DNA of 64,000 bases from NCBI RefSeq assembly GCF_000384155.1, contig NZ_KB913031.1, positions 930,001 to 994,000 on the forward strand, in the 5' to 3' direction. Each line of letters starts with the position of its first letter. Position 1 is the stretch's first letter. The notes under the pieces were generated by a model. The model was given only the letters and a program-made list of their open reading frames with translations, was not told the DNA's origin and made no database searches. The translations under genes were made by a program, and so were the position numbers. Below are positions 2,035 to 12,418 of this stretch, piece by piece. The stretch comes from Methylophilus sp. 42 (GTDB lineage Bacteria; Pseudomonadota; Gammaproteobacteria; Burkholderiales; Methylophilaceae).

Positions 2035-2904
2035 ATGGATGATATTAACTCGGCAACGCCTTTGCCTTCCCTGAGCAAGTTTCAACACAAGCGCTGGCAG
2101 GCGCGACTCGAATTAGGCTTCGCCTTGCGCGAGCAACGATCTTACCTGGCACATCGCCTGCATAGCGGGCCGCTAGTCGTGCAAAAATCATTACATCCCG
2201 AGGGTGACGCCATTTGCCATGCGGTGATTGTGCACCCGCCTGGTGGCGTGGCGGGCGGCGACGCCTTACAGTTACAGGTCAATGTGGGTGAGGGTGCGCA
2301 AGCCTTGTTGACGACACCGGGTGCCGGTAAATGGTATAAAGCCAATGGCACGCTGGCTTCGCAGGATTTAAAATTCACGTTGGCAGCAGGTAGCGGGCTG
2401 GAGTGGTTGCCGCAAGAGAATATCTTGTTCGACGCGGCTGAAGTGCGCTTTAGTGCCGAGATAGACCTGGCTGCCGATGCCAGACTTGCTGCCTGGGATA
2501 TTGCCTGCCTGGGCCGTCAGGCGCAGCAAGAGGCCTGGCAAACCGGCGTTTACCAGTTAAAGCAACAGATACGCCGCGATGGCAGGCTGATCTGGAACGA
2601 ACGTGCGCATATGCGTGCAGCCGATGTGCTGACGAGCAGTCGCATTGGTTTGGGTGGCGCGGTGGTGTTTGGGACATTCATTATATGCGCGGGAGCTGTG
2701 CCTGCTGATGTGGTGCAGGCGTGCAGGGAACTCGTGCCTGCCGATGCCAAGACCGGCATCACTGCTTTGCCGGAAGTGCTGGCGATCCGCTACGTCGGGC
2801 AGGCCTCACAGCAGGCCAGACAATACTTCGAACAATGCTGGCAGCTGCTGCGACCCTGGTATTACGGCCGCGCAGCGATCAGGCCGCGCATTTGGAACAC
2901 TTAG
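2035..2904 (+). CDS. ureD: Urease accessory protein UreD
   Basis: UreD (UreH) scaffold that, with UreF and UreG, binds apo-urease for GTP-dependent nickel insertion. It has 289 residues, normal for the family. Recognisable conserved blocks are the early GPLVVQKSLHPEG segment, the VIVHPPGGVAGGD segment around residues 63-76 and LTTPGAGKWY around 93-102. The ATG at 2035 is preferred: an upstream ATG at 2022 is in another frame and stops quickly. Ends 27 bp before ureA and opens the urease operon. Confidence 0.95.
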   Translation: MDDINSATPLPSLSKFQHKRWQARLELGFALREQRSYLAHRLHSGPLVVQKSLHPEGDAICHAVIVHPPGGVAGGDALQLQVNVGEGAQALLTTPGAGKWYKANGTLASQDLKFTLAAGSGLEWLPQENILFDAAEVRFSAEIDLAADARLAAWDIACLGRQAQQEAWQTGVYQLKQQIRRDGRLIWNERAHMRAADVLTSSRIGLGGAVVFGTFIICAGAVPADVVQACRELVPADAKTGITALPEVLAIRYVGQASQQARQYFEQCWQLLRPWYYGRAAIRPRIWNT

Positions 2905-2931
2905 AACAATAACGATTAAAGAGACGCAGCG

Positions 2932-3234
2932 ATGGAACTGACTCCCAGAGAAAAAGACAAGTTACTGATATTTACCGCCGCACTTTTGGCAGAGCGGCGC
3001 AAGGCACGTGGCTTAAAACTCAATTATCCCGAAGCGATCGCCTATATCACGGCAGCCATTATGGAAGGCGCACGCGATGGCAATACGGTCGCTGAGCTTA
3101 TGAGTTTTGGTACCACCTTGCTGACGCGTGATGACGTGATGGAAGGCGTGCCGGAAATGATTCCGGATATACAGGTGGAGGCTACTTTTCCGGATGGGAC
3201 GAAATTAGTGACCGTCCATCACCCCATTCCATAG
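2932..3234 (+). CDS. ureA: Urease subunit gamma UreA
   Basis: Smallest structural subunit of nickel urease, 100 residues as in other bacterial three-subunit ureases. It begins [14 protein letters not shown], a hallmark of UreA, and has the conserved YPEAIAYI and [18 protein letters not shown] segments. It forms the (UreABC)3 trimer with UreB and UreC in the cytoplasm. Its stop is followed by an unusual palindromic repeat of about 120 bp before ureB; ureA and ureB usually lie close together. Confidence 0.97.
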
Positions 3235-3236
3235 GT

Positions 3237-3356
3237 GTGAATGATGAAAATGGCGAATTGCGGCGTTGCGCGGTACTCGAAATCCTCATGTACTACATGT
3301 ACATTCCGGTTTCTGCGTTCCGTGCGCCTTGCACTTCATCCATTTTGATCATTCAC
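3237..3356. repeat. Palindromic intergenic element between ureA and ureB
   Basis: Imperfect inverted repeat of about 120 bp. The outer arms, 3237-3253 (GTGAATGATGAAAATGG) and 3340-3356, match as complements at 16 of 17 positions. The centre is the palindrome CATGTA-C-TACATG (3287-3299), and partly matching arms lie between. No coding potential. It looks like a non-autonomous palindromic repeat that entered the operon; it would form a hairpin in the urease mRNA and could affect stability or subunit ratio. Confidence 0.75.
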
Positions 3357-3390
3357 TGACGCATCTAAAAGGTTCAATAGGAAAAATAAT

Positions 3391-3714
3391 ATGATTCCCG
3401 GCGAAATGCAGGTCGCAGCAGGCGACATCGAACTAAACACAGGGCGCGAAACCGTGACGCTGGATGTGGCGAACAAGGGTGACCGGCCGATTCAGGTTGG
3501 TTCGCATTACCATTTTTATGAGACCAACGACGCCTTGTCATTTGACCGTGCGCTGGCTTATGGCTGCCGGTTAAATATTGCTGCAGGCACGGCGGTGAGG
3601 TTTGAGCCTGGTCAGACGCGTACCGTGCAATTGGTGCAACTGGCTGGTGATCGAAAAGTATATGGCTTTGCTGCACGGGTGATGGGGAGCCTCAAGGATG
3701 GGAGTAAGCAATGA
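3391..3714 (+). CDS. ureB: Urease subunit beta UreB
   Basis: Beta structural subunit of urease, 107 residues, normal length. It begins [16 protein letters not shown] and contains the family motif [10 protein letters not shown] (around residues 38-48) and the [13 protein letters not shown] segment. AGGAAAA upstream serves as ribosome binding site. The stop overlaps the ureC start (ATGA at 3711), so UreB and UreC are translationally coupled, whereas UreA is set apart from them by the palindromic element. Confidence 0.97.
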
Positions 3715-5414
3715 CCATTAAAATGGATAAACGTGCCTATGCCGAAATGTTTGGCCCGACTGTGGGCGACAAAGTGCGCCTGGCGGATACCGAGTTATGG
3801 GTAGAGGTGGAGAAAGACTTCACCATTTATGGTGAAGAGGTCAAGTTTGGTGGCGGCAAGGTCATTCGTGATGGCATGGGCCAAGGCCAGGGCCTGGCGG
3901 CGGAAGTAGCTGATACCGTGATTACCAATGCCTTGATTATTGACCATTGGGGCATTGTTAAAGCCGATATCGGTATCAAGGGCGGTTATATTTCTGCCAT
4001 TGGCAAAGCCGGGAACCCGGATATCCAGCCCGGCGTGACCATTGCCATTGGTGCAGGTACTGAGGTGATTGCCGGTGAAGGCATGATTATCACCGCCGGC
4101 GGCATTGATACGCATATCCACTTTATTTGTCCGCAGCAGATTGAAGAAGCATTGATGTCTGGTGTCACCACCATGATAGGTGGCGGTACTGGGCCAGCCA
4201 CTGGCACATTTGCGACCACCTGTACGCCGGGGCCATGGCATATCCACCGTATGTTGCAATCTGCGGATGCGTTCCCTATGAATTTAGGCTTTCTTGGCAA
4301 GGGCAATGCCAGTTTGCCTGAGCCGCTGCGTGAGCAGGTGCGCGCAGGCGTGATCGGCCTTAAATTGCATGAAGATTGGGGCACGACGCCCGCAGCGATT
4401 GATAACTGCCTGAGTGTGGCTGACGAGATGGATATCCAGGTGGCGATTCATAGTGATACGCTCAATGAATCCGGCTTTGTTGAAACCACCATAGGTGCCT
4501 TTAAAGGCCGCACTATTCATACCTTCCATACCGAAGGCGCGGGTGGCGGCCATGCGCCGGATATTATCAAAGCGGCCAGCCATCCGAATGTGTTGCCGTC
4601 TTCGACCAATCCGACGCGGCCATTCACCGTCAATACGATTGACGAGCATCTGGATATGCTTATGGTCTGCCATCACCTGGATCCAGCCATTGCCGAGGAT
4701 ATCGCTTTTGCCGAGAGCCGTATCCGCCGCGAAACGATTGCCGCTGAAGATATCTTCCACGATCTCGGTGCGTTTTCCATGATGTCATCTGACTCACAGG
4801 CCATGGGGCGCGTCGGTGAAGTGATTATCCGCACCTGGCAGACCGCACATAAAATGAAAATCCAGCGCGGCCCGTTGGCTGAGGATACTCCCGGCAACGA
4901 CAACTTCCGCATTAAACGCTATATCGCCAAGTACACCATTAACCCGGCGCTGACACATGGTATTTCGCATGTAGTGGGTTCCGTGGAAGTTGGTAAACTG
5001 GCCGATTTAGTCGTCTGGAAACCCGCATTCTTTGGCGTGAAACCATTTACCATTATCAAAGGTGGCATGATTGCCGCAGCGGCGATGGGCGATCCGAATG
5101 CGTCTATTCCGACGCCGCAACCGGTGCATTACCGGCCGATGTTTGGTGCTTATGGTGGTGGTTTGAAAACCGCAGTGACCTTTATTTCGCAAGCCGGGCT
5201 GGATAATCCTGAAGTGCACGCATTAGGCCTGCAAAAACCGCTTATCGTGGTGAAAGGCACACGCGATGTTAAAAAGTCAGACATGATACATAACACCTGG
5301 ATGCCTAAAATCGAGGTCGACCCGGAAACCTATGAAGTGTTGGCTGATGGCATGCCGCTGGTGTGTGAACCGGCGGAAGTGCTACCGATGGCGCAACGTT
5401 ATTTCCTGTTTTAA
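3711..5414 (+). CDS. ureC: Urease catalytic subunit alpha UreC
   Basis: Catalytic subunit: hydrolyses urea to ammonia and carbamate at a dinuclear nickel centre. It has 567 residues, the usual length. All expected ligands are present, one residue later than in the Klebsiella enzyme: His135 and His137 (THIHF), the carbamylated Lys218 in GLKLHED, His247, His273 in HTFHTEG, the flap histidine His321 in MVCHH and Asp361 in [11 protein letters not shown]. The start overlaps ureB by four bases. It ends two bases before ureE. It should be fully active if nickel is delivered by UreD/E/F/G. Confidence 0.98.
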
Positions 5415-5416
5415 TC

Positions 5417-5908
5417 ATGATTCATTTAACCGAACGTATTACTGTCAGCGGCCGTATCGACGATCAATTAGAGTTACCTTTTGATCAACGCCAGAAAAGT
5501 CGTCTGCGTGTGGCGCTGGTGTCTGGTCGTGAAGCTGCCCTGTTTCTAAGCCGTGGCATTATTTTACGCGGTGGCGATTTGATTCAATCAGAGGATGGCA
5601 GTCTGGTGGTGCAGATTGTGGCCGCGCAAGAGCCTGTCTATAACGTGATTGCGCCTACCCCAAGAGATTTAATGCGAGCTGCTTATCATTTAGGCAATCG
5701 CCATGTGCCCTTGCAGATTGGCGATGGTTGGCTGCGCCTGGAGCAGGATTATGTGCTCAGGGATATGCTGCTGGGTTTAGGTATGCAGGTGAGTGAAGTG
5801 CATGCACCATTTGAGCCGGAAGCCGGGGCTTATGGTGGCGGCCACCGGCATGGTGAGGATGCCTTACATTCATTGCGCCCGCGGCAGGATGGTCATGCGC
5901 ATGGCTAG
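5417..5908 (+). CDS. ureE: Urease accessory protein UreE (nickel metallochaperone)
   Basis: UreE nickel carrier, 163 residues. An N-terminal domain with the [13 protein letters not shown] segment is followed by the metal-binding domain with [22 protein letters not shown]. The C-terminal tail is moderately His-rich (HRHGEDALH and DGHAHG), fitting nickel binding. It starts two bases after ureC and its 3' end overlaps ureF, so these genes are coupled. Confidence 0.95.
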
Positions 5909-6584
5909 TGCACTGGCACTGAGTCGGTTGCTACAACTGGCAAGTCCGTTGCTGCCGGTGGGGGCTTATGGCTATTCGCAAGGGTTGGAATGGGCCATTG
6001 AGTCTGGCGAGGTGAAAGATGTTGCTTCGGCCCAGGGCTGGATAGGCGACAGTTTACAGGTCTATCATGCGCGCTTTGAGTTGCCAGTGTTATACCGTTT
6101 ATATCAAGCTTGGCAGGCAGGCAACATGCAGCAAGTGCAAGCCTGGGACAGTTTTTACCAGGCCGGGCGCGATACCGCTGAAGGTTGGGCGGAAACGCGG
6201 CAAATGGGATATTCGTTGCGGCGGCTGTTGAATGATTTAAAGCCGATGTCTGCCGAACTGGTTGCGCAGGTGAATACGCTGGCGTCACCTGCTTTTCCGA
6301 CGCTCTATGCGGCCATTGCCCAGCACTGGCAGATTGCGCCTGAGCAGATGTTACACGGTTACGCCTGGGGCTGGCTGGAAAACCAGGCCAGCGCTGCCAT
6401 GAAAGCCGTGCCATTAGGACAGGTCGCTGGCCAGACCATTCTGCTCGCCTTGGGTGAGCAATTGCCGCAAGTAATACAGGCTGCGATGCAACTGCCTGAG
6501 GATGAAATGAGCAATTTCAACCCGCTGCTCAGCATTGCTGGCTGTCAACATGAAACACAATACAGCAGGTTATTTAGATCATGA
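5895..6584 (+). CDS. ureF: Urease accessory protein UreF
   Basis: UreF, the helical accessory protein that gates GTP hydrolysis by UreG in urease activation. The body begins with the conserved [23 protein letters not shown] segment. Two adjacent ATGs (5895 and 5901) can start it, giving 229 or 227 residues. AGGA at 5886-5889 sits closer to the first, but either is possible. The start region overlaps the end of ureE in another frame, and the stop overlaps ureG (ATGA). Confidence 0.93.
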
Positions 6585-7234
6585 AAATACATACCCAATT
6601 CGACACCCCCACGCCCGCCGTTACCGACTACAAAGAACCTTTGCGCGTAGGCATCGGCGGCCCGGTTGGTTCCGGTAAAACCGCTCTGACCCTGGCGCTG
6701 TGCCAGCGCTTGCGCGAGGCATATAACATTGCCGTCGTCACCAACGATATTTACACCAAGGAAGACGCCGAATTTTTAACGCGTAATGAAGCGCTGGTGC
6801 CAGAACGTATCATCGGTGTCGAAACTGGCGGTTGCCCACATACGGCGATTCGTGAAGATGCCTCTATGAATCTCGAAGCCGTCGATCAGCTTAGCAAACG
6901 CTTTAAAACGCTGGATATCGTGTTTGTCGAAAGTGGTGGCGATAACCTGGCGGCGACGTTCAGCCCGGAGTTGTCTGACCTGACCATTTATGTGATCGAC
7001 GTGGCTGCAGGTGAGAAAATTCCACGTAAAGGCGGCCCTGGCATTACCAAATCAGATTTGCTGGTGATCAATAAGATCGACCTGGCACCTATGGTAGGCG
7101 CATCGCTGGAAGTCATGGACCAGGATGCCAAACGTATGCGTGGCGAGAAGCCGTTTGTGTTCAGCAACCTGAAAAGTGGGCAGGGCCTGGAGGAGATTGT
7201 GAGGTTTATAGAAAAGCAGGGCCTGATGTTATAG
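6581..7234 (+). CDS. ureG: Urease accessory GTPase UreG
   Basis: SIMIBI-class GTPase that delivers nickel to apo-urease, 217 residues. The P-loop is GGPVGSGKT at 26-34, the nickel/dimerisation CPH motif lies in [15 protein letters not shown], the [15 protein letters not shown] block follows, and NKIDL is the base-specificity motif. Slightly longer than the minimal family (about 205) through an N-terminal extension before LRVGIGGP. The start overlaps ureF by four bases. Confidence 0.97.
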
Positions 7235-7297: not shown

Positions 7298-7873
7298 ATG
7301 AAAAAAAGTATTGTTTGGGGTGTCGCAGCTAGCCTGGTATCTGGCGTGGCTTGGGCGCATCCAGGGCATGGCCTGACGACTGGGTTTGCGACGGGTTTCC
7401 TGCACCCGCTTACCGGCTGGGATCATTTGCTGGTGATGCTGTCACTTGGCGTGTGGGCCGCGCGTCGGCCCCAAGGGCAAGGCTGGCAATTGCCAGTGTT
7501 ATTTGTGCTGGCGATGGCGGTGGCTGCGCTCACAGCGATGACCTGGTTATCTGTCTCCATGGCTGAGTTGCTGGTGGCGTTTAGTGTGTTGGTGATGGGG
7601 GCTTTGTTGCTGGCAGAGATCAAGCTATCGCGTAGCATCCAGCTTGCTGGTGTTGCGGTGATTGCGGCTGCACATGGGTATTTGCACGGTGTGGAGTTAG
7701 GCAATCACTGGGCTGCGTTGGCCGGTATGGTGGTGGCGACTGCGCTGTTGCATGGGGTTGGCTGGGCATTAGGGCGTCAGCCGCAGTCGTGGGCGAACTC
7801 GGTGTCCAGAGGGTTGGGCGGAGTCATGCTGGTCTTAGGTGCCTACTTGGGAGCCAGCTTGCTCTGGGCTTAA
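7298..7873 (+). CDS. ureJ: HupE/UreJ family nickel transporter
   Basis: Predicted inner-membrane nickel permease of the HupE/UreJ family, 191 residues. A cleavable signal-like start (MKKSIVWGVAASLVSGVAWA) is followed by the family motif HPGHG and then HPLTGWDHLLVM (around residues 33-44), whose His and Asp bind metal. Several further membrane helices follow. GGAGA lies ahead of the start. It is the last gene of the urease cluster and ends in a strong terminator; supplying nickel to urease is the natural role. Confidence 0.88.
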   Translation: MKKSIVWGVAASLVSGVAWAHPGHGLTTGFATGFLHPLTGWDHLLVMLSLGVWAARRPQGQGWQLPVLFVLAMAVAALTAMTWLSVSMAELLVAFSVLVMGALLLAEIKLSRSIQLAGVAVIAAAHGYLHGVELGNHWAALAGMVVATALLHGVGWALGRQPQSWANSVSRGLGGVMLVLGAYLGASLLWA

Positions 7874-7903: not shown

Positions 7904-7937
7904 AAAATGCGGATAAGTTTGTTATCCGCATTTTTTA
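7904..7937 (+). terminator. Rho-independent terminator of urease cluster
   Basis: Perfect 13-bp stem (7904-7916 with 7922-7934), 5-base loop GTTTG, followed by a T-rich tail. It lies 30 bp after the ureJ stop and separates the urease operon from the sensor-kinase genes. Confidence 0.9.
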
Positions 7938-7959: not shown

Positions 7960-7977
7960 CTACGTCAATTAACGTAG
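7960..7977. promoter_or_regulatory. Inverted repeat CTACGT-N6-ACGTAG, possible operator
   Basis: A 6-bp perfect inverted repeat with a 6-base spacer, about 80 bp upstream of the NCS1-kinase start. The size suits a dimeric regulator such as the LuxR-type protein encoded downstream. This is inference; only one copy was noticed. Confidence 0.3.
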
Positions 7978-8058: not shown

Positions 8059-11000
8059 TTGTCTAACCCTTCCGAGCTATCACAGGCACCGCATGCCGAG
8101 CCGATACAGCGTATCGTCAAGATTCGTCGCGACTATAACAATTGGGTCGCTAACGAAACCATAGAAGATTACGCGCTGCGCTATACGCCACGGGCTTTCC
8201 GTAAGTGGTCAATTTTGCGTGTCTCGAATACGGCGCTGGGGGCGATTTCTTTCCTGGTGCTGGAGGCGATTGGCGGCACGATTACCATTAACTATGGTTT
8301 TCCCAATGCCTTGTGGGCGATTCTGGCCGTCGGCCTGATTATTTTCCTGACCGGCTTGCCGATCAGCTACTACGCCGCCAAATATGGCCTGGATATGGAT
8401 TTGCTGACGCGAGGTGCCGGTTTTGGCTATATCGGGTCGACTATTTCCTCGTTTATTTACGCTTCGTTCACGTTTATCCTGTTTTCGCTCGAAGCGGCGA
8501 TTATGGGCTATGCGCTGGAGCTGTATTTTCATTTGCCGCTCTATCTCGGCTACCTGGTCAGTGCGCTGATTGTGATTCCGCTGGTGACGCACGGCGTGAC
8601 CTTGATCAGCCGTATCCAGATGATCACGCAGCCGCTCTGGATTGCGCTCATGTTTTTGCCGTTTTTTGCCATCTTGCAGATGGATCCGGATGTGTTGCAT
8701 AGGCTCAGTAGCTTTGCCGGCGTGTCTACGGATGGTGGCCACTTTAACTGGGTCATGTTCGGCACCGCGACGGCGGTGGGTGTGGCGCTGATTCCGCAAA
8801 TCGGTGAGCAGGTCGACTTCTTGCGTTTTATGCCAGTGCGCAACAAGGAGAATTACTGGCGCTGGAACCTGGGCGTGCTGATGGCCGGGCCGGGCTGGGT
8901 CATTCTGGGCATGCTCAAAATGCTGGCAGGCGCCTTGCTCGCTTACCTGGTGTATAACCGCGATATGCCACTGAGCTCGGCGGTGAACCCTACCCATATG
9001 TACTGGGTCGGGTTTGAACATGTTTTCAGTAACCATCAGGTGGCACTGGCGGTGACGGCGCTGTTTGTCTGTGTGTCGCAAATCAAGGTCAATATGACCA
9101 ATGCCTATGCCGGTTCACTGGCCTGGTCTAACTTTTTTGCCCGCCTCACGCATAGCCACCCCGGCCGTATTGTGTGGGTGGCGTTTAACGTCATGATTGC
9201 CATTGTGCTGATGGAGCTCAATGTATTTCAGGCGCTGGAAGAAATCTTGGGCCTGTATGCCAATATCGCCATCGCCTGGATTGCCGCCGTGGTGGCCGAT
9301 CTGGTGATCAATAAGCCCTTGGGTTTAAGTCCTAAAGGCATTGAGTTCAGGCGTGCTTATTTATACGATATTAACCCAGTGGGTGTCGGGGCCATGTTTA
9401 TTGCCTCGGCGGTGTCGATTGCTGCGTATACCGGCATCATGGGTGTGCTGGCACAGTCATTCTCTACCTTTATTTCGCTGGTAACTGCGTTGTTAATGTC
9501 GCCGCTGATTGCCTGGTATACCAAAGGTAAATATTACCTGGCCAGGCAACGTCCGACCTATTTGCAACCCTCGACCACCAAACAATGTGTGATCTGTGAG
9601 CGCGAATATGAGGTGAGTGATATGGCGCATTGCCCGGCTTATGGTGGCGCCATTTGTTCTTTGTGCTGTTGTCTGGATGCGCGTTGCCATGATGCTTGCA
9701 AACCGCAGGCCAGGCTCAGCGCGCAGTGGGAGGCGCTCAACAAGAAGTTTTTACCACCACGTTTGTGGCCGCATTTAAATGGTGGGGTGGCGCATTTCTT
9801 ATTGCTCATGCTGATCGCCATGATTTTGTTTGGAGCCACCATAGGCCTGATTTACCTGCATGATGCCCTGACTGTTGGCCGTGAGTATCCCGGGCTGATG
9901 CAGCATTTCCGTTCTGGTTATTTAAAGGTGTTTGTCGCCTTGCTGTTTTTGGGCGGCATTGTGGCCTGGTGGCTGGTGCTGACTTCGGCCAGCCGACGGG
10001 TGGCACAGGAAGAGTCTAACCGGCAAACCGGCTTGTTGCTGGAAGAGATCGAGTCGCACAAAAAAACCGATACGCAATTGCAAAAAGCACGCCGTTTGGC
10101 CGAAGAGGCGAACCAGGCCAAGAGCCGCTACATCACCGGCATCAGCCATGAGTTACGTACACCGCTCAACAGTATTCTGGGTTATGCGCAACTGCTGACC
10201 AATGACGACAGCATCCCCGACCACCGCAAGCAGGCGATTAAAACCATTAGCCGTGGCGGCGAACACTTGCTGTCATTGATTGAAAGCACGCTGGATATCG
10301 CGCGGATTGAAAGCGGCAAAATGACGTTTGATGTCAAGCCGCTGCATTTCCCGGAATTTATCAGCCAGATGGTCAGCATGTTTGAAATCCAGGCGCAAAA
10401 CAAAGGCCTGGCATTTTATTTTGAGCAGTCCGGCAACTTGCCGGAGTATGTGCGTGCTGACCACAAGCGGCTAATGCAGATTCTGGTCAATATCCTGGGC
10501 AATGCGGTCAAGTTCACCACCAAGGGTAGTGTGACTTTCCGTGTGAGCTACGCGCGGGAGATTGCACAGATCGATATTGAGGATACCGGCCCTGGCATTG
10601 CGCCGAATGAGGTGGAGAAGATTTTTGAGCCGTTTGAGCGCGGCAGTGCAGCCGATGTGGTTGGGATCGGTGGCACCGGTTTGGGCCTGACCATCAGCAA
10701 ACTGCTGACGCAGCTAATGGGCGGCGAAATGCAGTTTGATAGTGTGCTGGGACGTGGTACGCGATTTGAAATTCGCTTATTCTTGCCGCAGATTCGTGAA
10801 ACAGCACATTTATCGAAAAAGGCCGTGCGGCAGCGTATTGGTTACGAAGGGCCGATCAAGACCGTGCTGGTAGTGGATAATGAAGAGGTCGACCGTGAGT
10901 TATTGCGCGATGCCTTGCAGCCGCTGGGTTTTATTGTGCATGAAGCAGGTAACGGCCAGGCTTGTGTTAACCAGTACCAGATGGTGCATGCAGACTTGAT

Positions 11001-11499
11001 CCTGATGGACTTGGCCATGCCGGTGATGGATGGCTGGGAGGCGGCTTATATCATCCGCCAGGTGCATCAATCCAAACTGCCGATTGCGATTATCTCCGCC
11101 AATGCCTATGACCGCAGCCTGGATAACCAGGCCAAGATTCCGGCACAAGACTTTTTTGTCAAACCGGTTAACCTGGACGAGGTGCTGGACTGGATAGGCA
11201 ATCAGCTCGGCCTGACCTGGCGTTATGTCGATAGCGCGGCATCCCAGTCGGCACTTGCCCTTAAACCTGTGGTGCCTGCGAGTGATGTTGACCCTGTACC
11301 AGCGATCTTGCTGGAAAATATGGCCCAGTTCGCCCGTATGGGTTACGTCAAAGGTGTGCGCGAAGTATTAGCCACCCTGAATAGAGAACATTCGCAACAT
11401 CAAACATTTATTCATGACCTGCAACAGGCCATGGAGCGCTTTGATTTTGCTAAACTGCAACGCTTGATTGAGGAGTACACCAAAAATGACCAGCCATAG
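8059..11499 (+). CDS. NCS1-type permease fused to hybrid histidine kinase
   Basis: A 1146-residue fusion. Residues about 50-480 form a multi-helix permease of the nucleobase-cation-symport (NCS1; cytosine, uracil, allantoin, hydantoin) type. Residues 510-547 hold nine cysteines (CxxC at 510/513 and 533/536), likely a metal site. Two further membrane helices follow (about 578-600 and 624-642), then a coiled segment, HisKA with phospho-acceptor His697 (ISHELRTPLN), an HATPase domain with NILGNAVKF and DTGPGIAP boxes, and a receiver with Asp984 (ILMDLAMP) and Lys1035. A C-terminal extension ends the protein. It starts at TTG with AAGG eight bases upstream. Inferred job: a transporter-derived nitrogen-compound sensor whose partner is the overlapping regulator gene. 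Real transport is unproven. Confidence 0.88.
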   Translation: MSNPSELSQAPHAEPIQRIVKIRRDYNNWVANETIEDYALRYTPRAFRKWSILRVSNTALGAISFLVLEAIGGTITINYGFPNALWAILAVGLIIFLTGLPISYYAAKYGLDMDLLTRGAGFGYIGSTISSFIYASFTFILFSLEAAIMGYALELYFHLPLYLGYLVSALIVIPLVTHGVTLISRIQMITQPLWIALMFLPFFAILQMDPDVLHRLSSFAGVSTDGGHFNWVMFGTATAVGVALIPQIGEQVDFLRFMPVRNKENYWRWNLGVLMAGPGWVILGMLKMLAGALLAYLVYNRDMPLSSAVNPTHMYWVGFEHVFSNHQVALAVTALFVCVSQIKVNMTNAYAGSLAWSNFFARLTHSHPGRIVWVAFNVMIAIVLMELNVFQALEEILGLYANIAIAWIAAVVADLVINKPLGLSPKGIEFRRAYLYDINPVGVGAMFIASAVSIAAYTGIMGVLAQSFSTFISLVTALLMSPLIAWYTKGKYYLARQRPTYLQPSTTKQCVICEREYEVSDMAHCPAYGGAICSLCCCLDARCHDACKPQARLSAQWEALNKKFLPPRLWPHLNGGVAHFLLLMLIAMILFGATIGLIYLHDALTVGREYPGLMQHFRSGYLKVFVALLFLGGIVAWWLVLTSASRRVAQEESNRQTGLLLEEIESHKKTDTQLQKARRLAEEANQAKSRYITGISHELRTPLNSILGYAQLLTNDDSIPDHRKQAIKTISRGGEHLLSLIESTLDIARIESGKMTFDVKPLHFPEFISQMVSMFEIQAQNKGLAFYFEQSGNLPEYVRADHKRLMQILVNILGNAVKFTTKGSVTFRVSYAREIAQIDIEDTGPGIAPNEVEKIFEPFERGSAADVVGIGGTGLGLTISKLLTQLMGGEMQFDSVLGRGTRFEIRLFLPQIRETAHLSKKAVRQRIGYEGPIKTVLVVDNEEVDRELLRDALQPLGFIVHEAGNGQACVNQYQMVHADLILMDLAMPVMDGWEAAYIIRQVHQSKLPIAIISANAYDRSLDNQAKIPAQDFFVKPVNLDEVLDWIGNQLGLTWRYVDSAASQSALALKPVVPASDVDPVPAILLENMAQFARMGYVKGVREVLATLNREHSQHQTFIHDLQQAMERFDFAKLQRLIEEYTKNDQP

Positions 11500-12418
11500 C
11501 CATACCGTGTTAATTGTGGATGATGTGCCAGAAAACCTGGCCTATCTGCATGACGCACTGGATGAGTCCGGCTACCAGGTCTATGTCGCCAACTCCGGTG
11601 AGATGGCGTTGCAAGTGGCGCATCTGATGCAGCCGCATGTGATCTTAATGGATGCGATGATGCCTGGCCTGGATGGTTTTGCTACTTGTCGTCGCATTAA
11701 GGCCGCGGCAGAAACCCAGCATATCCCGGTGATTTTCATGACCGGCCTGACCGAGATCGAACACGTCACCATGGCGTTCGATGCTGGTGGTGTGGACTAC
11801 GTCACCAAGCCGGTACGCCCGGCAGAGGTGTTGGCGCGCCTCAAGGCACATGTGCAGAATGCCACCAAAATGCATCAGGCTACTTCAGCGCTGGATGCCT
11901 TTGGCCAGGCAACGATTGCGATTTTGCCTACGGATAAACGCCTGGTATGGCAAACCCCGCTGGCCAAACAATACCTGGAGCAGTATTTTGCCGAGTGGGC
12001 AGCCAAAGAGGCTTACAGTGCTGTGCAAACCTTGCCGCCCATGATTTATCAGTGGCTGGAAAGCTGTATACAGCAATTCTCCAGCGGCCAGTCCATGCAA
12101 ACGCTCAGTGTGAATCAGGGCAATGCACGCCTGAGCCTGACAGTGGCCAATACCAGTGAAGAGCAATGGGTGGTGGTGTTACGCGAGCATTCGGACGAAG
12201 CGCAGATTGAATCACTGGGTAAGTTGTTCCAGCTCACCAAGCGTGAGTCAGAGGTGTTGTACTGGACCGTCAAGGGCAAGACTAATAAAGACGTTGGTGA
12301 AATACTGGGCACCAGTCCACGCACCATCAATAAGCACCTTGAACATGTCTTCCAGAAACTGGGGGTTGAAACCAGGACTGCTGCTGCGTCACTGGTAGCA
12401 TCCAAAATCAAGTTCTAA
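11486..12418 (+). CDS. Response regulator, receiver plus LuxR-type HTH
   Basis: 310 residues. The N-terminal receiver has acidic residues VDD at 11-13, phospho-acceptor Asp56 (ILMDAMMP) and the conserved Lys in VTKPVRP. A middle region of about 100 residues is unassigned. The C-terminal LuxR/GerE helix-turn-helix begins LTKRESEVLYW and includes SPRTINKHLEHVFQKLGV. The ATG at 11486 is chosen because GAGGAG lies 10 bases upstream; a TTG at 11468 in the same frame has no better support. The gene overlaps the kinase gene by 14 bases, so the two are coupled and form a cognate phosphorelay. The targets could be the urea genes or other amide/purine genes; this is not visible here. Confidence 0.92.
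   Translation: MTSHSHTVLIVDDVPENLAYLHDALDESGYQVYVANSGEMALQVAHLMQPHVILMDAMMPGLDGFATCRRIKAAAETQHIPVIFMTGLTEIEHVTMAFDAGGVDYVTKPVRPAEVLARLKAHVQNATKMHQATSALDAFGQATIAILPTDKRLVWQTPLAKQYLEQYFAEWAAKEAYSAVQTLPPMIYQWLESCIQQFSSGQSMQTLSVNQGNARLSLTVANTSEEQWVVVLREHSDEAQIESLGKLFQLTKRESEVLYWTVKGKTNKDVGEILGTSPRTINKHLEHVFQKLGVETRTAAASLVASKIKF

Follow-up and report, generated by a model that had tools for sequence, protein, structure and literature searches.

The 64,000 nt window analysed here, part of contig NZ_KB913031.1 of Methylophilus sp. 42, encodes on its forward strand a 1146-residue protein (8059 to 11499, TTG start) in which an NCS1-type permease body is followed by a module of eight cysteines (Cys8), two transmembrane (TM) helices and a hybrid histidine kinase. 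We propose, with a probability of about 0.75, that this protein is a sensor kinase which derives from a transporter and responds to urea and/or short-chain amides (formamide, acetamide), and that its LuxR-type partner, encoded by the next gene, activates the fmd, urt and ure genes. As the fusion stands beside urea and amide genes in many bacteria, it probably represents the switch so far missing for their activation. Computation establishes the order of the domains, the NCS1 relationship of the body, the conserved neighbourhood and, at part of the loci, an inverted repeat.

The sensor protein matches three Pfam families: HisKA at residues 687-753 (10117 to 10317), HATPase_c at 801-909 (10459 to 10785) and Response_reg at 936-1044 (10864 to 11190). 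The phospho-acceptor H697 is a histidine in 77 of the 79 aligned rows, and D984 of the receiver, which also has K1035, is an aspartate in 71 of them; with these domains and phosphorylatable residues the protein is a hybrid histidine kinase. No Pfam family is matched before residue 687, and neither a PAS nor a GAF domain was found in the protein at E values up to 0.01. The regulator gene (11486 to 12418, forward strand) encodes 310 residues with a receiver (Response_reg, 1.2e-26) and a LuxR-type GerE domain (1.3e-17), the make-up of the NarL/FixJ type. Its start is most likely the ATG at 11486, which overlaps the sensor gene by 14 bases; the alternative TTG at 11468, given by the lister of open reading frames (ORFs), would extend the overlap to 32 bases. 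An earlier sequence-only reading of this DNA had described a permease-kinase-receiver gene and a downstream receiver-LuxR gene overlapping it by 14 bases, and the ORFs and Pfam matches bear this out. The cysteine-rich linker and the two further helices that it had placed behind the permease were likewise found, as eight cysteines at 510-547 and as helices at 577-609 and 611-642 of the model.

The permease body spans residues 32-498 (8152 to 9552). Direct searches did not assign it: residues 1-504 matched nothing in Pfam at E values up to 10, 23 relatives scanned singly over residues 1-656 matched neither the NCS1 nor the SSSF families, the PF02133 cut-off was reached neither by the sensor body nor by any of these 23 alignment members, and a profile of relatives had no significant match among PDB sequences. 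An AlphaFold model of the sensor was built from the 23 alignment rows. Its five best PDB matches in Foldseek are all NCS1 chains, of CodB and Mhp1 (TM-score by target 0.61-0.74), and the next ones are other LeuT-fold carriers. By hhalign, the body aligns with a profile of twelve NCS1 proteins at 98.5% (E=1.9e-15, 381 columns) and with one of seven SSSF proteins at 18% probability over 115 columns, the NCS1 and SSSF profiles reaching 75% when compared with each other. Two standalone relatives, the L099 protein and a Klebsiella protein, exceed the PF02133 cut-off (E 5e-9 and 1.4e-9, respectively), and a close standalone relative scores 37.7 bits where the cut-off is 23.5. The Klebsiella permease is 43% identical to the sensor body over 520 columns, and the L099 protein matches the body profile at 2e-22. 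Since structure match, profile comparison and PF02133-matching relatives agree, we take the body to be a remote NCS1 subfamily. An SSSF/SLC5 body was rejected on the weak and short hhalign match and because the sensor protein does not match PF00474 (SSF) in Pfam. The sequence-only reading had favoured NCS1 over SSSF and had proposed a profile search between the two as well as structural modelling; both were run, and both point the same way.

For the mapping of pocket residues, the chains of Mhp1 and CodB were aligned with the body by MAFFT, at low identity and with the uncertainty of such a distance. The positions were taken from the available part of PMC9379551, which describes W108 and F204 of CodB as an aromatic pair enclosing the base from both sides. 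In this alignment the sensor body has not retained the nucleobase sandwich: the position of W108 (141) is L in 31 and F in 45 of 76 fusions, F also occurring there in 4 of 12 NCS1 rows, and that of F204 (245) is mostly I, V or M. Q121 of Mhp1 corresponds to E145, N318 of Mhp1 to N348, and T278 of the CodB Na2 site to K343. This lysine is invariant in all 76 fusions and in 3/3 standalone relatives, as are E145, Q247, E250, Q251, N345 and N348. The invariance of these polar site residues points to one ligand class, which we read from the alignment as one small polar ligand for all fusions and standalones; K343 at the Na2 site suggests that there is no sodium coupling. E69 and F65 are found in 76/76 fusions and 0/3 standalones, while position 68 is D in 3/3 standalones and L in 73/76 fusions. 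We read TM1 as carrying a sensor-specific change, the standalones compared being three; given these sensor-only substitutions, transport may have been lost in the sensor.

Since the sensor body has not kept the CodB aromatic pair, and since urt, ure, fmdA and amiE are among its neighbours, urea or a short-chain amide is a likelier ligand than a nitrogen heterocycle. A ligand of the kind typical of NCS1 members (nucleobase, hydantoin or allantoin) would follow from the family relationship of the body, but with the pair replaced by L/F141 and mostly I/V/M245 and with neighbouring genes that serve urea and amides we consider such a ligand very improbable; nucleobase genes were not scored among the neighbours. 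A nucleobase was thus disfavoured as a candidate. Of the earlier suggestion that the protein senses a nitrogenous heterocycle or amide, the pocket and the neighbours favour the amide over the heterocycle.

At 75 loci (30 from a contig scan, 36 hand-picked from the 57 copies of a phylum scan, one plasmid, and eight stretches of a class scan) the neighbouring genes were compared with reference proteins (urt, ure, fmd, amidase and others); many of these loci are closely related to the window locus. The fusion or its input module is present at 74 of them. At 64 of the 74 there are at least three urt genes, at least three ure genes, or fmdA, amiF or amiE, a count that becomes 63 when at least 36% identity is required per match and 56 at 45%. 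The regulator gene lies directly downstream of the sensor gene on the same strand in 65/74 loci, and the nine without an adjoining regulator consist of four at contig ends (L041, L047, L066, L068) and five with other-output proteins (L106, L107, L199-L201). Full-length FmdA was taken to be any match with an E value no higher than 1e-160; this threshold was chosen once the scan had shown the next match to come only at 1e-84. Such an FmdA occurs in 40 of 398 Pseudomonadota genomes, of which 39 also have the fusion (exception G263), and 39 of the 43 FmdA copies lie no more than 20 kb from a fusion (Fisher p 1e-41, not corrected for kinship). On this co-occurrence, itself uncorrected for kinship, a chance neighbourhood was rejected. 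Thirteen fusion genomes have no full-length FmdA; the eleven loci examined from them, a set outside which G256 and G373 fall, all show urt and/or ure genes, L133 weakly.

The earlier reading had called an NCS1 body in such fusions much less discussed; the fusion is not rare. In the phylum scan 55 of the 398 Pseudomonadota genomes gave a match and 52 have the fusion, in 57 copies, once two remote standalone transporters (G324, G343) and a 94-residue fragment (G385) are left out. A family-level scan gave matches, a few of them fragments, in 50 of 150 genomes, and the 30 loci of the contig scan belong to Methylophilaceae, Methylophaga and other Gammaproteobacteria, Burkholderiales and Amaricoccus. 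Plasmid records yielded 533 matches at 1e-60, 501 of which cover at least 80% of the query and 340 of which are from Klebsiella; a few, for example in Nostoc, comprise the kinase part only. On one conjugative Klebsiella plasmid (MG764551.1; L173:4897-15252) the sensor and regulator genes accompany amiF-urtEDCBA. This cluster looks like the UTS of PMC13060141, in the main text of which neither 'two-component' nor 'histidine kinase' occurs. Another stretch of 20 kb holds two sensor copies (L202:6961-19771), the second reaching the stretch edge.

In the Methylophilus genome itself (L118), the order is lipoprotein-like gene, porin, fmdA, fmdB, urtABCDE, ureDABCEFG, hupE, sensor and regulator, the first gene lying on the opposite strand with 24% identity. 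The porin, fmdA, fmdB, urtA and urtB genes lie upstream of the window start. The window opens, all on the forward strand, with the end of urtC, urtD (417-1160) and urtE (1187-1876) of a urea/short-chain-amide ATP-binding cassette (ABC) transporter (10 to 1876). Next come seven genes which we take to be ureD, ureA, ureB, ureC, ureE, ureF and ureG (2035 to 7234), ordered as in annotated urease clusters, and a gene for a HupE/UreJ membrane protein (7298 to 7873; PF04955, 5.9e-42). The sensor gene had been placed behind a cluster for urea uptake and hydrolysis, which it indeed follows, the cluster extending upstream of the window. In Methylophilus, formamide and urea induce the fmd system (fmdCABDEF), and its regulator is only putative in the available part of PMC10781810; this induction fits a role of the fusion as sensor. 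For a Bradyrhizobium urt-like cluster beside a PF03069 gene, the authors argue in the accessible sections of PMC3098086 for an amide cargo, possibly acetamide or formamide.

A terminator-like hairpin (7904 to 7934, forward strand) separates ure-hupE from the sensor gene, which therefore probably has its own promoter; a sigma-70-like promoter was not found upstream of it. The inverted repeat TACGTCAATTAACGTA (7961 to 7976), identified by repeat searches, is a proposed operator upstream of the sensor gene. Its consensus, TACGTCA-N2-TGACGTA, is found again at many loci, not all, upstream of urtA, fmdA or the sensor gene, and its 7-2-7 spacing resembles that of NarL-type sites. The search set comprised 34 intergenic stretches, 30 chosen by rule as divergent starts and four by hand. 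TACGT-N6-ACGTA occurs in 11 of them, whereas in 50 letter-pair shuffles no repeat of this kind exceeded a count of 2, and the full repeat reaches at least 12/14 letters in 19 versus 0.06% of shuffled stretches. Directly upstream of the sensor gene, 12/14 is reached at 16 of the 29 loci tested. Among the sites in its own genome, only that at 7961-7976 has no more than one mismatch. Applied to eight further whole genomes, the same limit gave seven places in six genomes (reversed control, two), six of which lie inside the sensor-urt-fmdA cluster, two of them directly before fmdA (G335, G463); the seventh is outside the cluster (G161), and G366 and G181 have no site. A search of the own genome for a regulon at two mismatches was unproductive as far as two of six further places were examined, one of these lying inside an rpoC-like coding frame. 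Conserved neighbourhood, FmdA co-occurrence and the shared inverted repeat support the earlier proposal that the system may govern nitrogen genes.

In the mechanism that we propose, a small amide would be bound in the membrane by the NCS1-type body, and the rocking motion of the body would be passed through the Cys8 module and the two extra helices to HisKA, as the model and the domain order suggest; in the model, the second extra helix leads without a break into the signalling helix. H697 would become phosphorylated and hand its phosphate on to the receiver-LuxR partner; the receiver within the sensor itself would probably tune or buffer the transfer. The partner would then bind TACGTCA-N2-TGACGTA, a site defined by comparison, upstream of both the porin-fmdAB-urt operon and its own sensor gene. 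Binding would turn on amide and urea uptake and hydrolysis and, by autoregulation, the sensor gene.

The Cys8 module (residues 505-548, 9571 to 9702) holds C510, C513, C525, C533, C536, C537, C543 and C547. All eight are kept in 77 of the 79 alignment rows, that is in every body-bearing row, the other two (L104_2, L201) being kinase ORFs without a body that were gathered by script. Modelled with its flanks, the module forms a small beta unit, and the second of the extra helices (residues 571-646, 9769 to 9996) runs as one unbroken helix towards HisKA (pTM 0.37). Foldseek found no significant match for the Cys8 segment, the best ones being mostly FYVE, RING and PHD zinc fingers; the module is probably zinc-structured, possibly binding two zinc ions. 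STAC is not among the Pfam matches of the linker, in a library that was not checked for a STAC model. The module could itself be the true sensor, of a metal such as nickel for urease or of redox state, with the permease delivering or positioning. Its eight cysteines are kept in all body-bearing rows, a HupE/UreJ gene lies next door and urease requires nickel, but the module is also kept at formamidase loci where no urease was scored (e.g. L102, L105, L173) and is complete in a kinase-free standalone permease (L197), the ure-linked standalones retain it only in part, and the non-significant zinc-finger matches hint at a structural role. We thus regard sensing by the cysteines as improbable.

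A Cys8-only profile found 29 places in 27 of 200 genomes, 28 of them within open frames of 894-1223 residues, like the fusion (exception G253, E 8e-4). The body-Cys8-helix input is also joined to PAS-GGDEF-EAL (L200) and to PAS-PAS-kinase-receiver (L201), as seen by Pfam, and the same NCS1-Cys8 input stands on plain kinases at L199 and L106 (Pfam) and at L107 and L068 (reading of the sequence). The PAS-GGDEF-EAL fusion (L200:7851-11525, reverse strand) has no urea or amide genes scored within its 20 kb, and its make-up suggests that the same signal would control cyclic-di-GMP there. This reuse bears on whether the signal arises inside the cell, as a metabolite or as nitrogen status, with the NCS1 body as a transporter or anchor that does not gate the kinase. 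According to the available part of a review (PMC7918813), a CbrA variant without its SSS domain still signals and an intracellular signal is favoured; the Cys8 module and the receiver are predicted to lie in the cytoplasm as well. However, the sensor has no PAS or GAF domain by the Pfam search above, its pocket residues are invariant in the 76 fusions, and its NCS1-Cys8 input recurs in front of GGDEF-EAL and of other kinases, as one would expect from a sensory module. An intracellular signal therefore seems to us unlikely, though less so than sensing by the cysteines, and binding of urea or an amide by the NCS1 body is the reading that we retain.

Relatives of the body also occur without a kinase. 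In Klebsiella, a 535-residue 'cytosine permease' (WP_002916878.1; L174:5941-7548 of NZ_CP129771.1) is encoded directly after ureG, and a relative 66% identical to it likewise ends a urease cluster after ureG in G809 (L198). These two keep only part of the Cys8 module. The Klebsiella protein may, from its position and kinship, be an unrecognised urea permease. In G795, sensor and regulator genes are divergent from an operon of a standalone NCS1-type permease (L197:11592-13442), fmdA, fmdB and amiE, a gene order in which the permease takes the place of urtABCDE; this permease has all eight cysteines and lacks the two extra helices. NCBIfam names stay below cut-off (cytosine permease for L174, E 0.28; TIGR00800 for L099, 59.2 versus 353.1 bits), and the remote standalones L100 and L101 do not match PF02133. 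At L099 (1784-4700), the gene of another remote standalone is followed by one for a carbon-nitrogen hydrolase (PF00795), which hints that the substrate there is likewise an amide or a nitrile. The trees give mixed indications on whether the fusion descends from standalone permeases: quick trees nest the standalones among the fusions, near the GGDEF-EAL and other-output forms; a tree with all fusions held together has a higher likelihood (AU p 0.774).

Several observations weigh against a urea/amide sensor with a LuxR partner. The neighbour counts include kin loci and are uncorrected for relatedness, and ten of the 74 loci have no urea or amide genes by our rule. Six of these ten stop at contig ends (L044, L047, L064, L065, L066 and L068), where about 1.2 kb of upstream sequence is visible for L064 and L065 and 3.3 kb for L066, and L047 still has ureF, ureG and hupE; L063 and L199-L201 are genuine misses and no contig-end cuts. 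L133 was counted solely through one 38% UrtA match and weaker ABC genes. The full repeat stays below 12/14 in 15 of the 34 intergenic stretches and, upstream of the sensor gene, in 13 of the 29 loci. With at most two mismatches it has eight places in the own genome, one of them before the porin-fmdA operon, versus ten for the reversed control, and the window has three matches with at most three mismatches versus 1.27 expected, which leaves the best site as the only conspicuous one. Of the six in-cluster sites in other genomes, four came from stretches used to build the consensus; the two before fmdA did not. The confidence of the sensor model is middling (pLDDT 68.7, pTM 0.71), and the L197 permease has no Pfam match at E values up to 0.01. 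As no HPt domain is among the Pfam matches of the sensor, the path of the phosphate is a guess.

Solute-carrier sensor kinases are already known for SLC5 and Amt (PMC7918813 and PMC5764959, as far as available). The SLC5/STAC kinases, which in the former comprise CbrA, CrbS/MxtR, RpuS and PrlS, some being hybrids and PrlS pairing with a LuxR-family regulator, share with the present protein a solute-carrier body fused to a histidine kinase. In contrast to them, its body is of the NCS1 type by hhalign, its Cys8 module and two helices lie, as far as the Pfam matches of the linker show, where they have STAC-PAS, and its proposed ligand is urea or an amide, whereas that of CbrA is histidine; CrbS and RpuS have been linked to acetate and pyruvate. 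Ks-Amt5, in the accessible account of PMC5764959, is likewise an uptake transporter for a nitrogen source turned into a sensor and coupled directly to a kinase, but it has a trimeric core and an Amt-DHp-CA make-up only. The fold of the Amt transporters is unrelated to the NCS1 body. With CodB and Mhp1 the body shares the NCS1 kind of LeuT-type fold and N348 at the position of Mhp1 N318; it differs in the loss of the base-stacking aromatics, the replacement of CodB T278 by K343 and the fused kinase. Amide-responsive control is also exerted by AmiC/AmiR, there over an amidase and an ABC transporter (PMC13209695, available part), through a binding protein and an antiterminator rather than a membrane kinase. 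No published sensor kinase with an NCS1 body was found in the literature searched, which most subscription journals lie outside.

A wider interpretation, whose chances we judge to be evenly balanced, is that the body represents a new NCS1-derived receptor family, present in about one in eight of the Pseudomonadota genomes sampled, that reads urea and short-chain amides. Its pocket would have changed from aromatic to polar, with a lysine at the sodium site and the sensor-only E69, and it would serve as input for hybrid kinases, plain kinases and a GGDEF-EAL protein; its kinase-free relatives would be urea/amide permeases, the first NCS1 members with non-heterocyclic substrates. The 'cytosine permease' that ends the Klebsiella urease cluster would then be predicted to carry urea, and NCS1 would join SLC5 and Amt as transporter families turned into sensor kinases. 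If true, the finding would supply the sensor and the operator for the formamide/urea-inducible fmd system of Methylophilus, give a part for urea/amide biosensors, and explain how many Proteobacteria switch on the uptake of urea and amides, plasmid-borne clusters included.

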